From: Aquamicrobium aerolatum DSM 21857
Lineage (GTDB): Bacteria > Pseudomonadota > Alphaproteobacteria > Rhizobiales > Rhizobiaceae
Direction of reading: 5' to 3'
Length of the DNA stretch: 64,000 nucleotides
Assembly (NCBI RefSeq): GCF_900113935.1
Contig: NZ_FORF01000004.1
Coordinates: forward strand, 62,001-126,000
The first letter of the stretch is position 1, and each line of letters opens with the position of its first letter. A program made the position numbers and the translations under genes. The notes under the pieces were generated by a model, which was not told where the DNA came from, searched no databases, and was given only the letters and a program-made list of their open reading frames with translations. Shown here in pieces: positions 13,755 through 23,940 of the stretch.

Positions 13755-14888
13755 ATGTACAGGGTCGCTATCAGCGGAACAGGCCTCTTCACGCCATCCG
13801 AAGTCATCACCAACGCCGAGCTGGTCGCTGCCTATAATGCTTATGCCGAACAGCAGAACGCAGCCAATTTCGCCGCCATCGAGGCGGGCGAGAAGCAGCC
13901 GCTGCCGATGTCGAACGAAGAGTTCATCGTCAAGGCGTCGGGCATCGAGCGCCGCTATGTGATGGACAAGACGGGTGTCCTCGATCCCAACATCATGCGT
14001 CCGGTGCTGCGCGAGCGCTCCGACGATGAATTGTCGATCATGGCGGAGATTTCAGTCGCGGCGGCAAAGGAAGCGCTCGAGAAGGCGGGCCGCACGGCAG
14101 AAGATGTCGACGCGGTGATCTGCGCGGCGTCGAACCATGAACGTGCCTATCCGGCGATTTCGATCGAGGTGCAGCAGGCGCTCGGCATCAAGGGCTTCGC
14201 GTTCGACATGAATGTCGCCTGCTCATCGGCGACCTTCGGCATCCAGGCCGCTGCAGACATGATCCGCTCCGGTTCGGCGCGCGCGATCCTGATGGTCAAT
14301 CCGGAGATCACGTCCGGCCACCACGAATGGCGCGACCGCGATTGCCATTTCATCTTCGGCGATGTTTGCACCGCTGTGCTGCTGGAGCGCGCCGAGACAG
14401 CGACGTCTTCCAACGCCTGGGAAATCCTGTCGACCCGCTGCGCGACCGAATTTTCCAACAATATCCGCAACAATAACGGCTTCCTGCGCCGCACCCGCGA
14501 GGGGCACATGCAAGACCGGCGCGACATGCAGTTCATGCAGGAGGGACGCAGGGTCTTCAAGCAGGTCGTGCCGTGGGTCGCGGAATTGATGCAGTCGCAT
14601 CTGGCCGATGAAGGCGTGAAGCCGGAAGAACTTGATCGCATGTGGCTGCATCAGGCCAACAAGAGCATGAACGATCTGATCGGCAGCAGGGTGCTGGGCC
14701 GCGAACCCTCGCGCGAGGAACAGCCCAACGTGCTGCAGGAATATGCCAACACCTCGTCGGCGGGTTCGATCATCGCGTTCAATAAATTCTCCGACGACCT
14801 TCCCGCCGACAGCCTCGGCGTGATCTGCTCATTCGGCGCGGGATATTCCGCCGGCAGCGTGATCGTGAAGAAGCTCGCCACCGCCTGA
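13755..14888 (+). CDS. KAS III-family enzyme, beta-ketodecanoyl-ACP synthase-like
   Basis: 377-residue thiolase-fold condensing enzyme. The KAS III triad is intact: Cys156 in NVACSSATFGIQ, His299 in WLHQANKSMN and Asn332 in YANTSSAGS. It is longer than FabH, with an inserted N-terminal stretch (NAYAEQQNAANFAAIEAGE). It strongly resembles what I recall of the Pseudomonas aeruginosa PA3286 type, which condenses octanoyl-CoA with malonyl-ACP and so shunts beta-oxidation intermediates into fatty-acid synthesis. The start at 13755 has CAGGAAA upstream; the frame is open to 13713. Third gene of the ALDH-SDR-KAS III group. No acpP or malonyl transferase is nearby, so it is probably not the main initiator FabH. 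Confidence 0.88.
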   Translation: MYRVAISGTGLFTPSEVITNAELVAAYNAYAEQQNAANFAAIEAGEKQPLPMSNEEFIVKASGIERRYVMDKTGVLDPNIMRPVLRERSDDELSIMAEISVAAAKEALEKAGRTAEDVDAVICAASNHERAYPAISIEVQQALGIKGFAFDMNVACSSATFGIQAAADMIRSGSARAILMVNPEITSGHHEWRDRDCHFIFGDVCTAVLLERAETATSSNAWEILSTRCATEFSNNIRNNNGFLRRTREGHMQDRRDMQFMQEGRRVFKQVVPWVAELMQSHLADEGVKPEELDRMWLHQANKSMNDLIGSRVLGREPSREEQPNVLQEYANTSSAGSIIAFNKFSDDLPADSLGVICSFGAGYSAGSVIVKKLATA

Positions 14889-14921
14889 AATTGCCGTGAC
14901 GGCGATCAGCCTGCGCGGGGT

Positions 14922-16208
14922 TCAGAAGCGATCGCGCAGGGCGTACCAGTTGAGGGCGAGGAACAGCAGGGGAGTGCGCAGGCGACGGCCGCCGGGGAAG
15001 GGAGGTATCCTCAATTCCTCGAACAGCTTGAGCCGGTCGCGATTGCCCGTGATGGTTTCGGCGTAAAGCTTGCCGACGAAGTTGGACAGCATGACGCCGT
15101 GGCCTGAATAGCCGCCTGCCGCAATGACGTTGGGCATCACCTCGCGCACGAAAGGCTGGCGCGGGATGGTGATGCCAACATAGCCACCCCACGCGTGGGT
15201 GATCTCCACATCCTTCAGTTGCGGATAGATCTCCGCGATCTGCTTGCGGATCGGGATGTGGATGTCTTTCGGGTCACCGGGCGCGTAGATTTCGCGGCCA
15301 CCGAAAAGCAGGCGCCCGTCTGCCGACTTGCGGAAATAGCGCACCACAAAGCGTGAATCGTCGACGGATTCACCGCCTGGGATGACGGGACTGTCGTTGC
15401 CGAGGGGCACGGTCGCGCCGATGAAGGAGCCGATCGGCATCACGTGCGAGGCACTGACAGGCTCAAGATTTTCGCCATAGGCGTTGACGGCGAGAAGCGC
15501 CTTGTCGGCGGTGATGGTGCCGCGCTTGGTGGTCACGCGGACCTTGCCGCCGGATGAGACGATGCTCGTCGCCTTGGTCATTTCATGCAGCAACGCGCCG
15601 GCCTGTGCGGCGACTTGCGCGGTGCCGACGACCAGTTTCAATGGATGAATGTGGCCAGTGCCGGCATCGCGCAGGCCGCCAAAATAGCGCGCGGAGCCAA
15701 GCCGCTGGGCGGTTTCCTGTGCGTCCATGAAGCTCAGATGCGCGTAGCCGAAGCGCTCAGCCATGAGCTGCACATGGGCCTGATAGGATTTCAGATAGCG
15801 CCGCTTGTGGACCACGGACATCTGCCCCGGCCGATAGTCGATATCGATCCGATGCGTCGCGGCAAAATTCAGCAGATGCGCCTTGGCGTCTTCTGCCAGG
15901 TCGAACAGCGCTTTTGCGCGCGTGAAGCCGATCTGGCCTTCCAGTTCTTCGCCCCATGCGCGTTGCCCTGTGCCCAGCTGGCCGCCATTGCGCCCGGATG
16001 CGCCATCGCCGAAACGATGAGCATCGATCAGCGCCACGCGGGTTCCGGCCTGCGCAAGATGCGCGGCTGCCGACAGCCCCGTGAAGCCGCCGCCGATGAT
16101 GACGACATCGACCGAAAGGTCGCCATCAAGAGGCTGATATTCCGGCCTCTCGCCAATCGTCGCTTCGTACCAGGAGTAGCCGGGGGAGATGGGAGATTGG
16201 TAGGGCAT
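14922..16208 (-). CDS. puuB: FAD-dependent oxidoreductase, gamma-glutamylputrescine oxidase-like
   Basis: 428-residue DAO-family flavoprotein. The dinucleotide-binding motif GGGFTGLSAAAHLAQAG lies at about residues 38-54, followed by GDGASGRNGGQLG, typical of PuuB/OrdL. The likely reaction is oxidation of gamma-glutamylputrescine to the aldehyde with release of ammonia and peroxide. It is transcribed in the same direction as the puuA-like gene at 16487-17920, but a 278-base gap carrying repeats and a four-helix-bundle remnant lies between them. The C-terminus ends in LLFLALNWYALRDRF. Substrate specificity rests on family and neighbour, not on diagnostic residues. Confidence 0.85.
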   Translation of the reverse strand: MPYQSPISPGYSWYEATIGERPEYQPLDGDLSVDVVIIGGGFTGLSAAAHLAQAGTRVALIDAHRFGDGASGRNGGQLGTGQRAWGEELEGQIGFTRAKALFDLAEDAKAHLLNFAATHRIDIDYRPGQMSVVHKRRYLKSYQAHVQLMAERFGYAHLSFMDAQETAQRLGSARYFGGLRDAGTGHIHPLKLVVGTAQVAAQAGALLHEMTKATSIVSSGGKVRVTTKRGTITADKALLAVNAYGENLEPVSASHVMPIGSFIGATVPLGNDSPVIPGGESVDDSRFVVRYFRKSADGRLLFGGREIYAPGDPKDIHIPIRKQIAEIYPQLKDVEITHAWGGYVGITIPRQPFVREVMPNVIAAGGYSGHGVMLSNFVGKLYAETITGNRDRLKLFEELRIPPFPGGRRLRTPLLFLALNWYALRDRF

Positions 16209-16239
16209 GGGGAGGCCGATGGGCTGGGGAGGGGGGAGA

Positions 16240-16276
16240 GTAGGAAGTGGGCAGTAGGCAGTGGGCAGTGGGCAGT
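16240..16276. repeat. CAGTGGGCAGT repeat tract, left arm
   Basis: Several tandem copies of GGCAGTGGGCAGT-like units. An 18-base core (AGGCAGTGGGCAGTGGGC at 16256-16273) recurs perfectly inverted at 16465-16482. A related tract occurs at 21831-21857. It lies just upstream of the puuB-like start. Confidence 0.85.
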
Positions 16277-16283
16277 TAGCGGG

Positions 16284-16450
16284 TCAGGAAGTGGAGAGTT
16301 TTCGGATCAGGCCGCGGAGCAGTTTTCCAATCTTCTCACAGTCAAGCAAGAGCGGTTCGGCCAGGCCTGACTCTGAGCATAGACCGCAACTGCGAGATCC
16401 ATCGCACGCTGCCAGACAATCAAATCTCTATAAGACTTGATCTCGCTCAT
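16284..16450 (-). pseudogene. Internally deleted four-helix-bundle (S23/IVS-type) protein gene
   Basis: On the minus strand the ATG at 16448-16450 opens a reading frame starting MSEIKSYRDLIVWQRAMDL and continuing AVAVYA. This is the characteristic N-terminus of the four-helix-bundle proteins related to 23S rRNA intervening-sequence proteins (usually about 115-125 residues). After about 25 codons the similarity stops in this frame. The other end of the family resumes in a different frame as EPLLLDCEKIGKLLRGLIRK and ends at the stop complementary to 16284-16286. About 60 central codons are missing and the frame is shifted, so no intact protein can be made. The remnant is bracketed by inverted CAGTGGGCAGT tracts and sits between the puuA-like and puuB-like genes. 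The function of the intact family is unclear. Confidence 0.75.
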
Positions 16451-16464
16451 TCAGCGCTCAAAAC

Positions 16465-16482
16465 GCCCACTGCCCACTGCCT
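16465..16482. repeat. CAGTGGGCAGT repeat, right arm (inverted)
   Basis: This is the reverse complement of 16256-16273 over 18 bases with no mismatch. It ends four bases before the stop codon of the puuA-like gene, so the element abuts that gene's 3' end. Confidence 0.85.
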
Positions 16483-16486
16483 CTCA

Positions 16487-17920
16487 CTACACGTTCAGCA
16501 ACAAATACTCCCGTTCCCATGGGCTGATGACTTCCATGAAGGTCTCGAACTCGGCCTTCTTGATCGCGGCATAGGTGGTGACGAAGTCGGAGCCGAGAAG
16601 ATCGCGCAAAGCGTCGTCGCCTTCAAAAAGCTCAACCGCTTCGAGCAAGCCACGCGGAAGGTCGATCTCGTCCTCATTGGCCGAAGTGCCGACCGGCGCG
16701 TCGCAGTGCTCCTTGTTGAGCATGCCGATCAGCCCGCAGGCGAGTGAGGCGGCAATCGCCAGATAGGGGTTTGCGTCAGAGGAAGGAATGCGGTTTTCGA
16801 CACGGCGGCCTGCCGGGTCTGAACGCGGAACACGGAAGGCGGTGGTGCGGTTGTCATAGCCCCACTTGGTGTTGACCGGGGCGGAGGCCGACTGGGTCAG
16901 GCGGCGATAGGAGTTGACGTAGGGAGCGAACATCACCAGCGCGCTGGGGACGTGTCGCTGCATGCCGCCAATGAAGTGACGGAACGCTTCGGTCTCGGTG
17001 CCGTCGATGGCGGTGAAGACATTGTTTCCGGTCTTAAGGTCCACGATCGACTGATGGATGTGCATCGCCGATCCCGGCTGACCCTGGATCGGCTTGGCCA
17101 TGAAGGTGGCATACGTATCGTGCTTGAAGGCCGCTTCGCGGATCGTCCGCTTGAACATGAAGACCTGATCGGCGAGTTCGATCGGATCGCCATGACGCAG
17201 GTTGATTTCAAGCTGGCCGGCACCCTCCTCGTGGATCAGGGTGTCGATCTCAAGTCCCTGAGCTTCCGAGAAATGATAGATGTCGTCGATGAGTTCGTCG
17301 AACTCGTTGACGCCGGCAATCGAATAGCCCTGACCGCCGCCGATGGCGCGACCCGAACGCCCGACCGGAGGTTCAAGCGGATAGTCAGGATCCGGGTTCT
17401 TGCGCACGAGATAAAACTCGATCTCCGGCGCCACCACCGGACGAAGACCATGCTCGGCATAGGCCGCGAGAATGCGGCGCAGAACGTTGCGTGGCGTAAA
17501 CTCGATCGAGCGCCCGTCCTGATGGACAAGATCGCAGATGACCTGTGCGGTCGGATCGCTCTCCCATGGAACGATCGACAGCGTCGACAGATCCGGCACC
17601 AGCTTGAGATCGCCATCGTCTTCCGGATAGACGAAGCCGTGACCGTCTTCCGGATAGCCGCCGGAAATGGTGGCCATGAACACCGCAGACGGAAGTGCCA
17701 GCGATGTGTTGGATGTGAACTTCTTCGAGGGCATCATCTTGCCGCGCGCCACGCCGGCCTGATCGGGCGTGATGCACTCAATGTCCTCGATGCCGCGCGA
17801 CTCCAGCCAAGCGGTCGCCTGTTTCAGGTCCGATACGCCACGCAGGCTCTGGAGGAATGCAGGCGTGCGCACGCGGGCGCCACGTCCTGTCGAGCGGGCT
17901 TCCTTTTTCTGGGCAGACAT
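16487..17920 (-). CDS. puuA: Glutamine synthetase family protein, gamma-glutamylputrescine synthetase-like
   Basis: 477-residue GS-fold ligase likely to join glutamate to putrescine or another amine using ATP. The N-terminal beta-grasp region contains DIECITPDQAGVARGK. The catalytic domain has the metal-site EIEFYLV, the EGAGQLEINL motif, the GS signature MAKPIQGQPGSAMHIHQS and the NRIPSSDANPYLAIAASLAC block. The ATG at 17920 is preferred to a TTG one codon upstream. No GS-I adenylylation loop is evident. It is followed on the same strand by the puuB-like oxidase, the order of the Puu pathway, although a decayed mobile-like element now separates them. Confidence 0.87.
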   Translation of the reverse strand: MSAQKKEARSTGRGARVRTPAFLQSLRGVSDLKQATAWLESRGIEDIECITPDQAGVARGKMMPSKKFTSNTSLALPSAVFMATISGGYPEDGHGFVYPEDDGDLKLVPDLSTLSIVPWESDPTAQVICDLVHQDGRSIEFTPRNVLRRILAAYAEHGLRPVVAPEIEFYLVRKNPDPDYPLEPPVGRSGRAIGGGQGYSIAGVNEFDELIDDIYHFSEAQGLEIDTLIHEEGAGQLEINLRHGDPIELADQVFMFKRTIREAAFKHDTYATFMAKPIQGQPGSAMHIHQSIVDLKTGNNVFTAIDGTETEAFRHFIGGMQRHVPSALVMFAPYVNSYRRLTQSASAPVNTKWGYDNRTTAFRVPRSDPAGRRVENRIPSSDANPYLAIAASLACGLIGMLNKEHCDAPVGTSANEDEIDLPRGLLEAVELFEGDDALRDLLGSDFVTTYAAIKKAEFETFMEVISPWEREYLLLNV

Positions 17921-18001
17921 CAATCACCAGTTTTGCTTTGAATGCGGCAAGTATAGACGGGACCGGCGCGAAGGGAAGTACCCTGCCGCATCTCGGGCGT
18001 G

Positions 18002-18442
18002 CTAATTGCGCGCTTCGGCCAAGAGGTTCAGGATCAGCGGCTGCAGTCGGTCCGGATTGACGGGTTTCAACACCACCGCGTCGATGAAGTCCGATTGGGG
18101 CTTGGATGGCTTGTTGGACGAGTTCGAAAGCAGGATGACAATCGGCAGGCGCGACTTGCCTTGGCTCCGCATGGCTGCAAGTTCCTTCAGAACCTCGTCA
18201 CATTCCAGATCATCCGCACCGCCATCCAGAATGACGGTGCCGGGCTTGCGGGATGACAATATGACACCTGCGCTTTCCGGGGTGGCGACAAGTGGCTTCA
18301 ATCCGGCAAGCTCGGCAATCCTGCTGACCACGACGTTGCCGATGCGGGAACTGCCGACGACCAGTACAAGCTCTGGACGGTATTTTGTACCGGACGCCGA
18401 ATGGTTTACTGGCGCGTCGCTGTCACAGTTCGAATGTCGCAT
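18002..18442 (-). CDS. Stand-alone receiver (CheY-like) domain protein
   Basis: 146-residue protein with a receiver-like fold: beta-strand ELVLVVGSSRIG, a buried Asp in TVILDGGADD, hydrophobic strand LPIVILLSNSS and a Lys in VVLKPVNPDRL that matches the KP motif. The first acidic pair of canonical receivers is replaced (VVGSSRIG), so phosphorylation is doubtful. No output domain. The ATG at 18442 is preferred to an upstream TTG. It lies between the puuA-like gene and the aceA region; no partner kinase is adjacent. Confidence 0.7.
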   Translation of the reverse strand: MRHSNCDSDAPVNHSASGTKYRPELVLVVGSSRIGNVVVSRIAELAGLKPLVATPESAGVILSSRKPGTVILDGGADDLECDEVLKELAAMRSQGKSRLPIVILLSNSSNKPSKPQSDFIDAVVLKPVNPDRLQPLILNLLAEARN

Positions 18443-18557
18443 AGTCAACTGCCGATCTGTCAGAAGAAAATAGAATTTTCTGAAGGCAGTCTTCTGGATA
18501 TTAATAACAAAGAGTCAATAGACTTCGGGCTGTGTAGTAAGTTGATCCGCCCGATAG

Positions 18558-18589
18558 CATCAGGCGGCGCAATGATACGCCGCCTGATG
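18558..18589. repeat. Perfect 12-bp stem-loop between the aceA-linked ORF and the CheY-like gene
   Basis: CATCAGGCGGCG and its exact complement flank an eight-base loop. There is no T-run directly after the stem on the minus strand, so it is not a textbook terminator for the 18615-18860 gene. The plus side is followed by TGTGTTTT. It may still act as a terminator or mRNA-end stabiliser. Confidence 0.6.
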
Positions 18590-18614
18590 TGTGTTTTATG
18601 TACTTTTGTTGCGC

Positions 18615-18860
18615 TCAGGCCGCGTTGCGCGACTGAGTTACAATAACCGGCACCAGAAGATCTCCCCAGTTGCCATCTCCACCATGATGGCGGGCCGAGC
18701 GGACCAGTTCAACCGACACGCCGGCCTCGACCGCCTTCATGACCGACTGATTGAGGCGGTGCAGGTCGTTTGCAAGCATGCGGATCGTGGCTTGCTGGTC
18801 GTCGTTCATGGCCGATGCCTGTTCTTCGGCTCGTTCCTTGACGCGTGTCTTGGGAGTCAT
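18615..18860 (-). CDS. Small conserved-looking hypothetical protein downstream of aceA
   Basis: 81-residue protein starting MTPKTRVKERAEEQ with a strong ribosome-binding site (AAAGGAG, 7 bases before the ATG). It is rich in charged residues and predicted largely helical (IRMLANDLHRLNQSVMKAVEAG), with a hydrophobic C-terminal strand (DLLVPVIVTQ). No signal peptide or membrane segment. It lies 29 bases after the aceA stop on the same strand and is probably co-transcribed with isocitrate lyase. I do not recognise a functional family. Confidence 0.75.
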   Translation of the reverse strand: MTPKTRVKERAEEQASAMNDDQQATIRMLANDLHRLNQSVMKAVEAGVSVELVRSARHHGGDGNWGDLLVPVIVTQSRNAA

Positions 18861-18889
18861 GACGTTTCTCCTTTGGGTGAGGCCGGGGG

Positions 18890-20179
<1,290 letters not shown>

Positions 20180-20286
20180 GGCAAACTCCATATGTAAAAT
20201 CTGGTCGGTCGGGGCGGGTGGTTGTTGCCGCCCTGCGTGTGACTGGATTTACATTGCGCTTGCGAGATAAACGAGAAAATTGCCGA

Positions 20287-20361
20287 AAACGTTGCAAATA
20301 TTCGAGTTAAGCAGTGTTGAGTTTGACAGGCTGGCATTGTAAATTTGTCAAAAATGTCAAA
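20287..20361. promoter_or_regulatory. Candidate operators in the aceA/regulator divergent region
   Basis: AAACGTTGCAAA at 20287-20298 matches 10 of 12 bases of the RamB-type site AAAGTTTGCAAA known from Corynebacterium. Further right, TTTGACA (20322-20328) is mirrored by two TGTCAAA copies (20346-20352 and 20355-20361). The region separates aceA from a RamB-like gene, so autoregulation and aceA control are plausible. No binding is proven. Confidence 0.45.
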
Positions 20362-20396
20362 GCAAGTTTCTTGTCTGGTTTTGTAAAGGCAGCGGA

Positions 20397-21815
20397 ATGG
20401 CCGAGCAGAAGATATTTGCGGGACCGCGCATTCGACGCATTCGCAACGCCAAGGGTCTGGCCCAGACCGCCATGGCGGAAGGGTTGGGCATCTCGCCGTC
20501 CTATCTCAATCTGATCGAGCGCAATCAGCGTCCGCTGACGGTCCAGTTGATTCTGAAATTGTCAGCGGCGTACGGGGTCGAGCCGGAGGAGCTTCACGGT
20601 GGCGCTGGCGGGTCTATTGCGGCGCTGCGTGAAGTGTTTGCCGATCCGCTGCTGGTCGGCGAGTTGCCGAGTGAGCAGGAGCTGATCGAAGTTGCAGAGG
20701 CTGCGCCAAATGCTTCGGCAGCGATGGTGAAGCTGTTTCGCGCCTATCGCGAGCAGGCGGAGCGTCTCAGCGATCTTTCCGAGATGCTGGCGCGCGAGGG
20801 GCGGGCGACCTCCATTTCCTCGGCGCGGCTGCCGATGGACGAGGTGCGCGAGACGTTTGAGCGCCGGCCAAACTATTTTGTTTCGATCGAGGAAGAGGCA
20901 GAGGCGTTCATCACGCTGCTGCAGCCGGGCGATGATCTTTACGGCGCGCTGAAAGAATGGCTACGCAAGGAATATGGCATTGTGGTGCGCGTGCTGCCGG
21001 TGGCGACGATGCCGAACTGGCGGCGGCGTTATGATCGCCACTCGCAGCGCCTGTTTTTGTCGGAACGCCTTTCCCCTTTCGACCAGTTGCGCGAAATCGC
21101 GATGGAGGCGGCGCTGATGCGCATGCAGGTGGCGATTGCTGCCGAGCTGAAAGCGCTCAAGCTGGGCAGCGATGAAGCGCGGCGGTTGGCGCGGTTCGAA
21201 CTGGCGCGCTATGCGGCCCACGCTTTGATGATGCCGTATCAGCCATTTCTGACCGCAGCGCAGCGCGCGCGATGGGATGTCGATGTGCTGCGCTCGCGCT
21301 TTGGCGTGTCGTTCGAGCAGGCGGCCAACCGGCTGACGACGCTTCAGAAGCAGGGTGCCAGCGGCATTCCGTTCTTCATGCTGGAAGTCGATAACGCAGG
21401 AAACCGCTTTCGCCGTGCCGGCGCGCAAGGATTTCCGCAGGCGCGGTTTGGTGGGGCCTGTCCGAAGCTGCCGGTCCATGCGGTGTTCGCCCAGCCCGGA
21501 CAGGTATTGGCGGAAGCCGTCGAAATGCCGGATGGGGCGCGGTTTCTGACGATAGCCCGCACGCTGGAAGGACCGCAGGGTGCATTCAATGAGCGTCCGC
21601 GTCGGACCGCGATTCTGCTGGGCTGCGATATCGGCTTTCGTGACGAGGTCGTCTACGCATCCGCGCTGCCGGGCGGCGGGGAGCCGACCCCGGTCGGACC
21701 GGTCTGCCGCCTGTGTGAGCGGGTGGGGTGCCTTGCGCGGGCAGAGCCGCCGGTCACGCGACCGCTGGGCCTAGACGAGATGACGACGGGCCTGAGCGCG
21801 TTTGATTTTCAGTGA
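20397..21815 (+). CDS. RamB/ScfR-type XRE-family transcriptional regulator
   Basis: 472-residue regulator. An N-terminal helix-turn-helix (residues 6-65) contains RIRRIRNAKGLAQ and ISPSYLNLIERNQRPLT. It is followed by an IrrE/ImmA-like region (DUF955; FDQLREIAMEAALM) and a C-terminal DUF2083-type domain with a Cys cluster, CRLCERVGC. This architecture is that of short-chain fatty-acyl-sensing regulators such as RamB, which control isocitrate lyase and acetate or propionate genes. It is divergent from aceA, which supports that role. The DUF955 metal-protease HEXXH motif is not evident, as usual for this subgroup. Confidence 0.88.
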   Translation: MAEQKIFAGPRIRRIRNAKGLAQTAMAEGLGISPSYLNLIERNQRPLTVQLILKLSAAYGVEPEELHGGAGGSIAALREVFADPLLVGELPSEQELIEVAEAAPNASAAMVKLFRAYREQAERLSDLSEMLAREGRATSISSARLPMDEVRETFERRPNYFVSIEEEAEAFITLLQPGDDLYGALKEWLRKEYGIVVRVLPVATMPNWRRRYDRHSQRLFLSERLSPFDQLREIAMEAALMRMQVAIAAELKALKLGSDEARRLARFELARYAAHALMMPYQPFLTAAQRARWDVDVLRSRFGVSFEQAANRLTTLQKQGASGIPFFMLEVDNAGNRFRRAGAQGFPQARFGGACPKLPVHAVFAQPGQVLAEAVEMPDGARFLTIARTLEGPQGAFNERPRRTAILLGCDIGFRDEVVYASALPGGGEPTPVGPVCRLCERVGCLARAEPPVTRPLGLDEMTTGLSAFDFQ

Positions 21816-21830
21816 AGGGGGATGGGGATT

Positions 21831-21857
21831 AGGCAGTAGGCAGTGGGCAGTGGGCAA
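21831..21857. repeat. Second CAGTGGGCAGT repeat tract
   Basis: AGGCAGTAGGCAGTGGGCAG-type units follow the regulator stop by 16 bases. A shorter inverted copy (CACTGCCCACTCCC) lies at 21946-21959. This is the same family as the tract at 16240-16276, but no four-helix-bundle remnant is recognisable between these two arms. Confidence 0.8.
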
Positions 21858-21908
21858 TAGTCGCCGTGCGCGCTTTCAAGACCCACGGCACTCACGCATC
21901 AGCGTGAT

Positions 21909-21946
21909 GAAGAATGGTTGACGATACGCATGGCCAGCCATTCTTC
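21909..21946. terminator. Stem-loop between convergent genes, possible bidirectional terminator
   Basis: GAAGAATGGTTG (21909-21920) pairs with CAGCCATTCTTC (21935-21946), a 12-bp stem with one G-T wobble and a 14-base loop. It lies between the convergent genes ending at 21815 and 21959. No strong T-run follows on either strand, so termination is a guess from position. Confidence 0.4.
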
Positions 21947-21958
21947 ACTGCCCACTCC

Positions 21959-22825
21959 CTACATCGGCCTTTCGCCTCGCAACAACGGCCCATGCGCGCT
22001 CAGCAGGTCTACGATGCGCTCGATCACGATGCGCACATCGGCGCGGTGGCGGTCGTCATTGTGCATGACAAGCCATTGCGGTTCGCGCAGGTCAGCGATG
22101 AGATCGCCCGCACGCTCCAGAAGCGGGTCGCGATCACCCGCAAAACACGGCATGACACCTTTGCCGACGCCCGAGCGGATGAGATCGTGCAGCGTGCGCG
22201 GCGTGTTGGCCCACGCGGCGACCGAGACGCCGGGTTGCGTCGACAACCAGCGGGCGGAACGCGTCGCAATATCTTCAGACGAGATCGCAACCCATTGATC
22301 GCGCGCTTCTCGTGATGCGGTGCGGGCACGGAACGGCGCCTGTGCAACTTCCGAACAACGACGTGCAGCCAGGTTGGGGTTCTGCGGCGCGGCGTTGCGC
22401 ACGCCAATTTCGACCTCGCGATGGGCGATGTCGAGCTTGGCTTCCGTCGCCTTGAACGCGATACGGAAGGCATCGTCGGGGTTCCACAGTCGTGAAAAGT
22501 TCTCCGCCAGAAAGTTCGTCGTCCAGGTGCCGGCTGAAATTCGGACAATCGAGCGCCCGCCTTCAGCATCGAGCCAATCGTCAATGGCGCGGGCGCTGGC
22601 TTCCATGGTTTGAGCCTTTGCCAGGAGGGCCAGTCCGTCAGTGGTCAGTTCGTAGCCGGTCTGCCGGCGCACGAAAAGCGGCCGGCCGGTCGCCTGCTCA
22701 AGCGCCAGCATGCGCCGCCCGATGGTTGCCGGGCTGGCGTCGTGCTCTCTGGCTGCTGCCGACAGCCCTCCTTCGCGCGCCACCGACAAGAATAGCTGCA
22801 GGTCGCTCCAGACGATGTTTTTCAT
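21959..22825 (-). CDS. LysR-family transcriptional regulator
   Basis: 288-residue regulator. An N-terminal winged helix (residues 1-65) has LQLFLSVAREGGLSAAAREHDASPATIGRRMLALEQ-type spacing, followed by a LysR substrate domain. It is divergent from the DMT transporter at 22999, which is its most likely target by position. The 3' end converges on the aceA regulator. Confidence 0.85.
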   Translation of the reverse strand: MKNIVWSDLQLFLSVAREGGLSAAAREHDASPATIGRRMLALEQATGRPLFVRRQTGYELTTDGLALLAKAQTMEASARAIDDWLDAEGGRSIVRISAGTWTTNFLAENFSRLWNPDDAFRIAFKATEAKLDIAHREVEIGVRNAAPQNPNLAARRCSEVAQAPFRARTASREARDQWVAISSEDIATRSARWLSTQPGVSVAAWANTPRTLHDLIRSGVGKGVMPCFAGDRDPLLERAGDLIADLREPQWLVMHNDDRHRADVRIVIERIVDLLSAHGPLLRGERPM

Positions 22826-22998
22826 GAATGAAGCATAGGGCGTCGTTTTCTGGCTTTCAATTGCGCAGCGCGGTGCTTTGTCGTTCAGTCGTGAATAATG
22901 TCGGGTGCAACAATGAGAACGTCGCTCTGGACCACGCGAGGCTGCGTAATTGCAGCTACCGGATGGAAAATGGCGGTATTCCTGTCAGGGAGCATGGC

Positions 22999-23940
22999 AT
23001 GGGCAGTTCTGAAGCAGTTCCTGTGGCATCGGCAGCCAGCGAGGAGCGGGTGGGCGTCGTCATCGTCTTTCTTGCTGCGCTGTGCTGGAGCCTGGGCGGG
23101 ATGTTTGCCCGCTATATCGAGGCGCCCGATGTATGGGCTGTCGTGTTCTGGCGTTCGGTCTGGGCCGCGCTGTTTCTGGCTGGCTTCATGCTTTGGCGCG
23201 ACGGAGCGCGTGGCTCCGTGCGGATGGTGCGGGCGATGGGACTGGCCGGATGCGTCGTCGGCTTTTGCTTCGCCATTGCCAGCACTGCGCTGGTGGTCGC
23301 ACTGTCCCATACCACGGTGGCGAACGTGCTTCTGATCCAGGCAACCGGCCCGCTGTTTGCCGCCATGATGGCCTATGTCGTGCTGGGTGAGCGGATCACG
23401 CTTCCAACCGTGCTGGCGATTGCCGCGGTGCTTGTCGGGATGGGGATCGTCGTTTCCGACTCGATATCGCAGAACCTGTCGATCATCGGCGAGGGGCTGG
23501 CAGTGCTGATCGTGCTGGCGTTTTCCTGCGCGACGGTAATGACGCGACGGTTTTCGCAGGTTCGCATGACGCCGGCGATGCTGCTTGGCACCTTGATGGC
23601 GGCGCTGTTTGCGTCAACCCAGGCAGGCAGTTTTGCCGTCAGCGCGAAGGATATGGCGTTTCTGTTTGCCTTCGGTGCGATCAATCTCGGGCTGGGCATG
23701 GCGTTTTTCGCCGTCGGGGCGCGGATGGTTCCGGCTGTTTACGCCGCGCTCTTGTCACCCTTCGAGCCGCTGCTCGGTCCGTTCTGGGTCTGGCTGGCGC
23801 ATGGCGAAGTTCCGTCGGGCAGCGCGCTTGTCGGGGGCGGGATCGTCATGGCGGCACTGCTGCTCTACATCGCCGTCGAATTCCGGCGGATGTCGAAACC
23901 GGTGCGCCCCGGCGTGACGGGCATTTCCGCGCCGAGCTGA
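22999..23940 (+). CDS. EamA/DMT-family drug/metabolite transporter
   Basis: 313-residue inner-membrane exporter with about ten hydrophobic segments arranged as two EamA halves. The first begins VGVVIVFLAALCWSLGGMFARY, and the internal repeat starts near ILVLAFSCATVM. The ATG at 22999 has CAGGGAG about seven bases upstream. The open frame back to 22828 includes 57 residues without the family's character, so I reject it. Transported compound unknown. Divergent from a LysR regulator. Confidence 0.87.
   Translation: MGSSEAVPVASAASEERVGVVIVFLAALCWSLGGMFARYIEAPDVWAVVFWRSVWAALFLAGFMLWRDGARGSVRMVRAMGLAGCVVGFCFAIASTALVVALSHTTVANVLLIQATGPLFAAMMAYVVLGERITLPTVLAIAAVLVGMGIVVSDSISQNLSIIGEGLAVLIVLAFSCATVMTRRFSQVRMTPAMLLGTLMAALFASTQAGSFAVSAKDMAFLFAFGAINLGLGMAFFAVGARMVPAVYAALLSPFEPLLGPFWVWLAHGEVPSGSALVGGGIVMAALLLYIAVEFRRMSKPVRPGVTGISAPS

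Follow-up and report, generated by a model that had tools for sequence, protein, structure and literature searches.

The spacer between a puuA-like and a puuB-like gene of Aquamicrobium aerolatum DSM 21857 (16209-16486) holds two pieces of a four-helix-bundle gene together with arms made of heptamers. This locus is probably a decayed member of a family of IVS-like, transcript-borne selfish elements that reside in mRNA operons. Coordinates refer to the window, the whole stretch of 64,000 nucleotides that was analysed.

Both flanking genes are on the minus strand. The upstream cistron is the puuA-like gene of the glutamine synthetase family (16487-17923; Pfam Gln-synt_C, E 1.7e-102), and the downstream cistron is the puuB-like gene for an FAD-dependent oxidoreductase (14922-16208; Pfam DAO, E 6.7e-65). 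The 5′ arm of the cassette lies on the minus strand 4 bases past the puuA stop (16465-16482) and comprises about 2.5 heptamers, reading AGGCAGTGGGCAGTGGGC on that strand. The 3′ arm, recovered by inverted-repeat and array scans, is a heptamer array on the plus strand with the unit AGTGGGC or AGTAGGC (16239-16276). Within these arms, 16256-16273 and 16465-16482 form an inverted repeat of 18 nt with 100% complementarity, the two halves being 191 nt apart. The preliminary description had reported a four-helix-bundle gene split over two frames and an 18-base perfect inverted repeat whose right arm comes within 4 bases of the puuA-like stop (16487); both are present in the spacer, and the coordinates agree. 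A three-unit GGCAGTN pattern allowing up to two mismatches matched seven times in the window, compared to 0.01 matches expected. Chance repeats were rejected on this excess and on arm matches far above controls.

Read on the minus strand, the 5′ piece of the gene (16356-16450) has its start codon at 16450-16448, runs for 31 codons and 2 bases to 16356, and was recognized both by profiles and by alignment with intact relatives. The 3′ piece (16284-16355, minus strand) consists of 24 codons including the stop, in another frame, and was placed by alignment only. Two pieces had been described before, each of 25 codons; the pieces stand, with lengths corrected to about 31 and 23. In the alignment with seven intact relatives, the remnant is interrupted by a single gap, 199 columns long, at 16355/16356, a length not divisible by three, and this one gap explains both pieces and their different frames. 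Together with the spacers of relatives, it bears out the idea of a cassette that has lost its centre and separates two consecutive genes.

The 5′ piece matched Pfam PF05635 (E 3.3e-4, profile positions 1-26) with 21.3 bits against a curated cut-off of 33.8, as expected for a fragment, and NCBIfam NF008911 (E 4.7e-8), also under its curated cut-off. The 22 residues of the 3′ piece alone had no match in Pfam or NCBIfam. An intact relative from the puu site (L023) passes the curated cut-offs of both PF05635 (120.8 bits, cut-off 33.8) and TIGR02436 (114.5, cut-off 24). Judged from sequence, by the match of the 5′ piece below the cut-off and by the occurrence of intact genes at this junction in relatives, the remnant is a member of the S23p/IVP family. 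The preliminary description took the function and mobility of the gene family with this repeat to be undescribed; the family itself is a known one (S23p, or 23S rRNA IVP). Searches of the window's own genome with PF05635 (controls also 0) and TIGR02436 returned no matches, and an Rfam search of 14000-23000 in the window had none either.

The puuA/puuB junction occurs in full, decayed, gene-less and empty states among relatives. We fetched 79 relatives of puuB, of which 71 include the end of puuA; the other eight were dropped. Spacer lengths count the stop and start codons, and array classes were assigned by eye. Six of the 71 have an intact gene, three have decayed pieces (L062, L029, L022), and nine have inverted arrays without a gene (L003, L005, L006, L007, L011, L012, L014, L027, L028). 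The spacer is 66-150 nt in 12 others and at most 60 nt in 41. Within the window's genus, eight genomes, some of them probably the same strains as among the 79, gave one full cassette (G001), the remnant in the window (G000), gene-less arrays in one genome (G007), and three empty junctions of 0 or -1 nt (G002, G004, G005), while G003 and G006 have spacers of 73 and 83 nt with no clear arrays. The empty, full and decayed versions that a comparison of this spacer was to look for are therefore all present, and the remnant is not a constant feature of the junction across relatives, since the states vary.

A similar picture was obtained at nuoC/nuoD, where NuoD was matched in 88 of 90 relatives. Among the best-scoring 30 of these loci, seven have the gene and two have gene-less arrays (L261, L275). 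In one of the seven, L272 (the same locus as L108), the gene is disrupted near its end and matches only profile positions 1-81 in a 98-residue frame. Sixteen of the 30 junctions are at most 17 nt long, including 8 nt in the window's own genome, and one is 56 nt. Four of the 30 (L277, L285, L287, L288) carry a different insert of 424-469 nt, which is not a four-helix-bundle cassette and whose printed ends have no heptamer arrays by eye. The cassette is absent from most junctions sampled at puu, at nuo and in the window's genus.

TIGR02436 was matched in three overlapping sets of genomes: 29 of 150 among relatives, 78 of 247 in the family and 49 of 299 in the phylum. We read 144 loci, made up of TIGR02436 matches and puu loci, and retained 138 after removal of L105 and L107, which had no query match, and of four duplicates; partial and several weaker places were left out, including G221:C40, G292:C2, G435:C43, G463:C153, G311:C109 and G518:C1:2100169. 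The cassettes recur directly past stop codons inside operons: 49 are at nuoC/nuoD, 25 at puuA/puuB, 20 between a circularly permuted ATP-grasp gene (CP_ATPgrasp) and Alpha-E, and 44 elsewhere, with sites named by Pfam on one example each. Seven of the 138 have an internal stop within the aligned part. All 94 loci at the three main sites are co-oriented with the operon, based on homology of both flanks. Both sides could be resolved by longest ORF in 29 of the 44 other loci, and 25 of these were co-oriented. A 26th, L216, is on the same strand as the 23S rRNA gene in which it lies (Rfam LSU, 2501.8 bits), at the classical IVS position and with an arm score of 16, leaving three of the 29 not co-oriented after this correction. 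In L217, the gene appears by eye to lie between direct rather than inverted repeats of about 60 bases.

A tblastn search of plasmids gave 30 records, mostly from cyanobacteria, and ten regions were read by eye. Clear inverted matching arrays were seen in six (L230-L234 and L237, the last a Gemmatimonadota locus that has no annotation), short or partial arrays in three (L235, L236, L239), and direct arrays in one (L238). By annotation, eight of nine loci are co-oriented with both neighbours, the exception being L233. Hosts include cyanobacterial cas operons, with insertions at cas6/cas4 (L234, L238) and cas10/cmr3 (L235); a figure legend in PMC10910872 names 23S rRNA IVP among CRISPR adaptation-module associations. 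One query of phage records gave no four-helix-bundle locus, and IMG/VR gave one (L298). This viral contig has matched heptamer arms, and the flanking genes are apparently on the opposite strand by eye.

Matched inverted arms accompany the gene at most loci. An inverted-repeat score of at least 12 was reached by 109 of the 138 distinct loci, and 29 have no matched arms at this cut-off. Before removal of the four duplicates the count was 112 of 142; shuffling the letters left 1 of 142, testing for direct orientation gave 7 of 142, and swapping partners gave 93 of 704. Repeats of this kind are thus strongly associated with four-helix-bundle genes elsewhere, although not as the one fixed sequence that had been envisaged. 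The arms are arrays of 7-8-mers that vary by locus: among those passing the score (duplicates included), 99 of 102 on the left and 117 of 118 on the right have a period of 7 or 8, and 39 unit classes occur among 96 left arrays, so that a search with the 18-base arm would miss most relatives. On the coding strand, G exceeds C in 94 of 96 left arrays and C exceeds G in 109 of 113 right arrays. G-quadruplex formation was rejected as a general reading of the arms, since, by eye, units such as GCGAATA and GTGAATG lack runs of G.

On average, the two arms of a locus match each other better than they match arms swapped within the site (p 0.0001 at nuo, 0.0005 at puu, 0.0001 at Alpha-E), which indicates that both arms change together. 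The own partner was the best or tied-best match in 12 of 49 loci at nuo, 3 of 25 at puu and 8 of 20 at Alpha-E; matching is not exclusive because units are common to several loci, and at puu, where such sharing is frequent, a score of at least 12 was reached by 444 of 600 swapped pairs. Agreement between the units and the gene tree is partial, with 16 unit changes at nuo (44 tips) compared to 30 when shuffled, 12 at puu (22 tips) compared to 14.3, and 9 at Alpha-E (18 tips) compared to 12.4. In predicted RNA, arm-arm pairs number 44.6, compared to 11.1 in first-order Markov sequences, and 90 of 94 loci have at least 15. In the window remnant and 94 relatives, the arms close a predicted stem around the gene, as in an IVS.

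Intact copies appear to encode a working protein under purifying selection, as indicated by median dN/dS values of 0.27 (28 pairs), 0.12 (6 pairs) and 0.17 (1 pair) for pairs with dS between 0.1 and 1.5. The four-helix-bundle tree is sorted by insertion site, with 10 site changes compared to 72 when shuffled. Gene distance correlates moderately with that of the downstream neighbour (Mantel r 0.68 at puu, 0.30 at nuo, 0.32 at Alpha-E); for the upstream neighbour, r was 0.53, 0.05 and 0.13, respectively. These sequence comparisons suggest that a cassette resides at its site, where it is inherited, lost and to some extent exchanged, perhaps through recombination within the genes on either side. 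Since the tree follows the site so closely, inheritance and loss may account for much of the pattern. The earlier suggestion of an inserted mobile cassette therefore fares unevenly: patchy presence points to mobility, but the tree behaves as in inheritance.

The selection on the protein, the repeated use of the same three operons and the site-structured tree are also what a gene serving its host would give, and the pairing of the arms in predicted RNA would suit a regulatory hairpin. Under such an explanation, the protein would aid expression or assembly of the operon products, and the window copy would be a lost accessory gene. We regard this as unlikely, because the host operons are functionally unrelated (complex I, puu-type catabolism, ATP-grasp/Alpha-E and cas), most sampled junctions do without the cassette, the same architecture occurs within a 23S rRNA gene (L216), and the arm sequence is arbitrary.

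Heptamer arrays also occur apart from the gene. The window contains a second array of the GGCAGTN type found at the remnant (21830-21860, plus strand), 14 bases beyond a stop codon (21815). It forms an inverted pair with an arm at 21946-21959 (minus strand; CACTGCCCACTCCC on the plus strand). By eye, this gene-less pair is flanked by a gene resembling those of XRE-type regulators and, on the opposite strand, by one of LysR type. The GGCAGTN pattern with one mismatch occurs at six places in the window's genome, five of which resemble inverted pairs by eye, the pair at 21830-21959 among them. Another of these, a short pair (L224, C17:47897), lies within a gene cluster that by eye looks like one of tail-type phage or gene-transfer-agent (GTA) genes. 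When 452 kb of the same genome were scanned at a strict setting, only the window's two pairs were returned (3 rows, 0.8 expected); the other three seen by eye were missed, partly owing to seed length and the stretches fetched. These 452 kb hold four arrays of period 7, none of period 8, nine of period 6 and 11 of period 9; with periods 6 and 9 commoner than 7, heptamers are not globally dominant in this genome. Over 764,853 bases (79 loci and the window), 13 period-7 and 11 period-8 arrays were found, compared to two each in Markov sequences, as well as ten period-12 arrays compared to one, and five inverted pairs at the strict setting.

Among the 247 family genomes, arrays of three perfect units were present in 22 for GTGAATG and in 22 for GGCAGTA, and the 78 carriers of the gene hold 17 (Fisher p 5e-6) and 19 (p 4e-8) of these, respectively. 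An array away from the gene was present in 12 of 78 carriers and 5 of 169 other genomes for GTGAATG (p 7e-4), and in 16 of 78 and 3 of 169 for GGCAGTA (p 1e-6), counting listed arrays only and taking unlisted as none. These statistics cover two units and carry no correction for shared ancestry or genome size; they support a link between the family and genome-wide heptamer arrays.

Such arrays linked to carriers, the inverted termini, and gene-less derivatives at several intergenic places in one genome are reminiscent of a MITE- or REP-like element that derives from a DNA transposon, carries the four-helix-bundle gene as cargo and depends for its movement on a transposase supplied by the host. 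The terminal sequence is not fixed, though, and co-orientation with transcription is strong. A Y1 transposase, as in the REP type, was found neither in the window's genome nor in 70 of 78 carriers, and is unsupported as mover, having no association with the gene (8 of 78 carriers, 17 of 169 others, p 1.0). On these results, which for transposases cover the Y1 family, a transposon origin is quite improbable. Reverse transcriptase (RVT_1) is mildly enriched in carriers (40 of 78, compared to 56 of 169 others, p 0.008) but is unsupported as mover as well, since 38 of 78 carriers gave no match, nor did the search of the window's own genome. A chance ORF remnant next to repeats that arose by ordinary slippage has next to no credibility as an explanation: heptameric repeats are over-represented in many bacteria according to a passage of PMC4692102, but the remnant matches protein families and aligns with intact genes at the same junction, and matched inverted arms are far above controls.

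The reading that we prefer is a transcript-borne selfish element. An intact copy measures about 450-500 bp and has the S23p/four-helix-bundle gene between two arms, a 7-8-mer array that is G-rich on the coding strand in front of the gene and a matching inverted array behind it, sitting in an operon directly past a stop codon along the direction of transcription. The cassette would be transcribed together with the operon, and its arms would fold into a long stem that may be processed as in rRNA IVSs, where RNase III acts, such that the neighbouring cistrons would remain translatable. The protein may bind the element RNA or the arms, favouring persistence or spread, and slippage together with copying between arms could alter the unit in both at once. 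Gene-less inverted arrays would then be leftovers or non-autonomous offspring of full elements, and spread within a site may occur by transfer via homologous flanking genes. A broader proposal, which may well prove wrong, is that these loci form one unrecognized selfish element class in rRNA and mRNA transcripts across several phyla, with an Avd-like four-helix bundle as sole protein and arbitrary-unit arrays copied in both arms as ends, which moves at the RNA level or by template copying with no transposase of its own and is the source of the widespread heptameric repeats in intergenic DNA of bacteria.

The cassettes bring together the S23p/IVP proteins, known for the most part from insertions in 23S rRNA, and the over-represented heptameric repeats, neither of which has been explained. 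If the reading as a selfish element is right, intact cassettes in the operons of other species may explain 7-base repeats across bacterial genomes, the repeats gain an origin open to testing in each genome, a class of elements whose ends vary is defined, and IVP genes in cas operons may be passengers. STRR heptameric repeats were reportedly described by Mazel in 1990.

Published heptameric repeats (GGGAATC in Xanthomonas and GGGGA(T/C)T in Nostoc, Rehm 2015, PMC4692102; TAACTGA, PMC4679880) are likewise 7-base arrays in mostly intergenic positions. Passages of these papers describe them as G-quadruplex or regulatory, with few inverted pairs for Nostoc and TAACTGA; Rehm et al. give 70 and 75 as the numbers of convergent inverted pairs for two Xanthomonas genomes and state that, in general, no association with mobile elements was found. 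PMC4692102 also remarks, as of 2015, that there was no detailed literature on them, and neither "S23" nor "four helix" occurs in the main texts of the two papers. Among the top matches in open-licence titles and abstracts, none ties IVP genes to heptamer arrays beyond a paper on Coxiella (PMC4990558). Terminal repeats of fixed sequence, as in IS elements and MITEs, are not seen in the cassettes, and the window's genome has no match to the Y1 transposase of REP/RAYT systems. Profile similarity to Avd of diversity-generating retroelements is weak (bAvd, E 0.0017, under its cut-off); a passage of PMC10053308 proposes homology to Avd, although the cassettes differ from Avd systems in the carriers with no RVT_1 match. 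A solved relative, XCC0516 (2gsc; E 4e-20), is described in the literature as a homopentamer of four-helix bundles.

The closest known system is the 23S rRNA IVS of Coxiella and Leptospira, which shares the S23p/IVP protein family, inverted flanks, a similar size and decaying copies. In Coxiella, as set out in sections of PMC4990558, the IVS is 428 nt long, heptamers (GACAGAT) precede the S23p gene in a manner similar to the cassettes here, and the IVS is excised from RNA by RNase III; the authors think that S23p is not produced there. L216 is a 23S IVS by position. In contrast, the other cassettes lie between protein genes in mRNA operons rather than in rRNA, their arms are 7-8-mer arrays of changing unit, and they have gene-less relatives elsewhere in the genome. 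Being placed between puuA and puuB, the window copy is therefore not a 23S IVS, but an IVS-like one.
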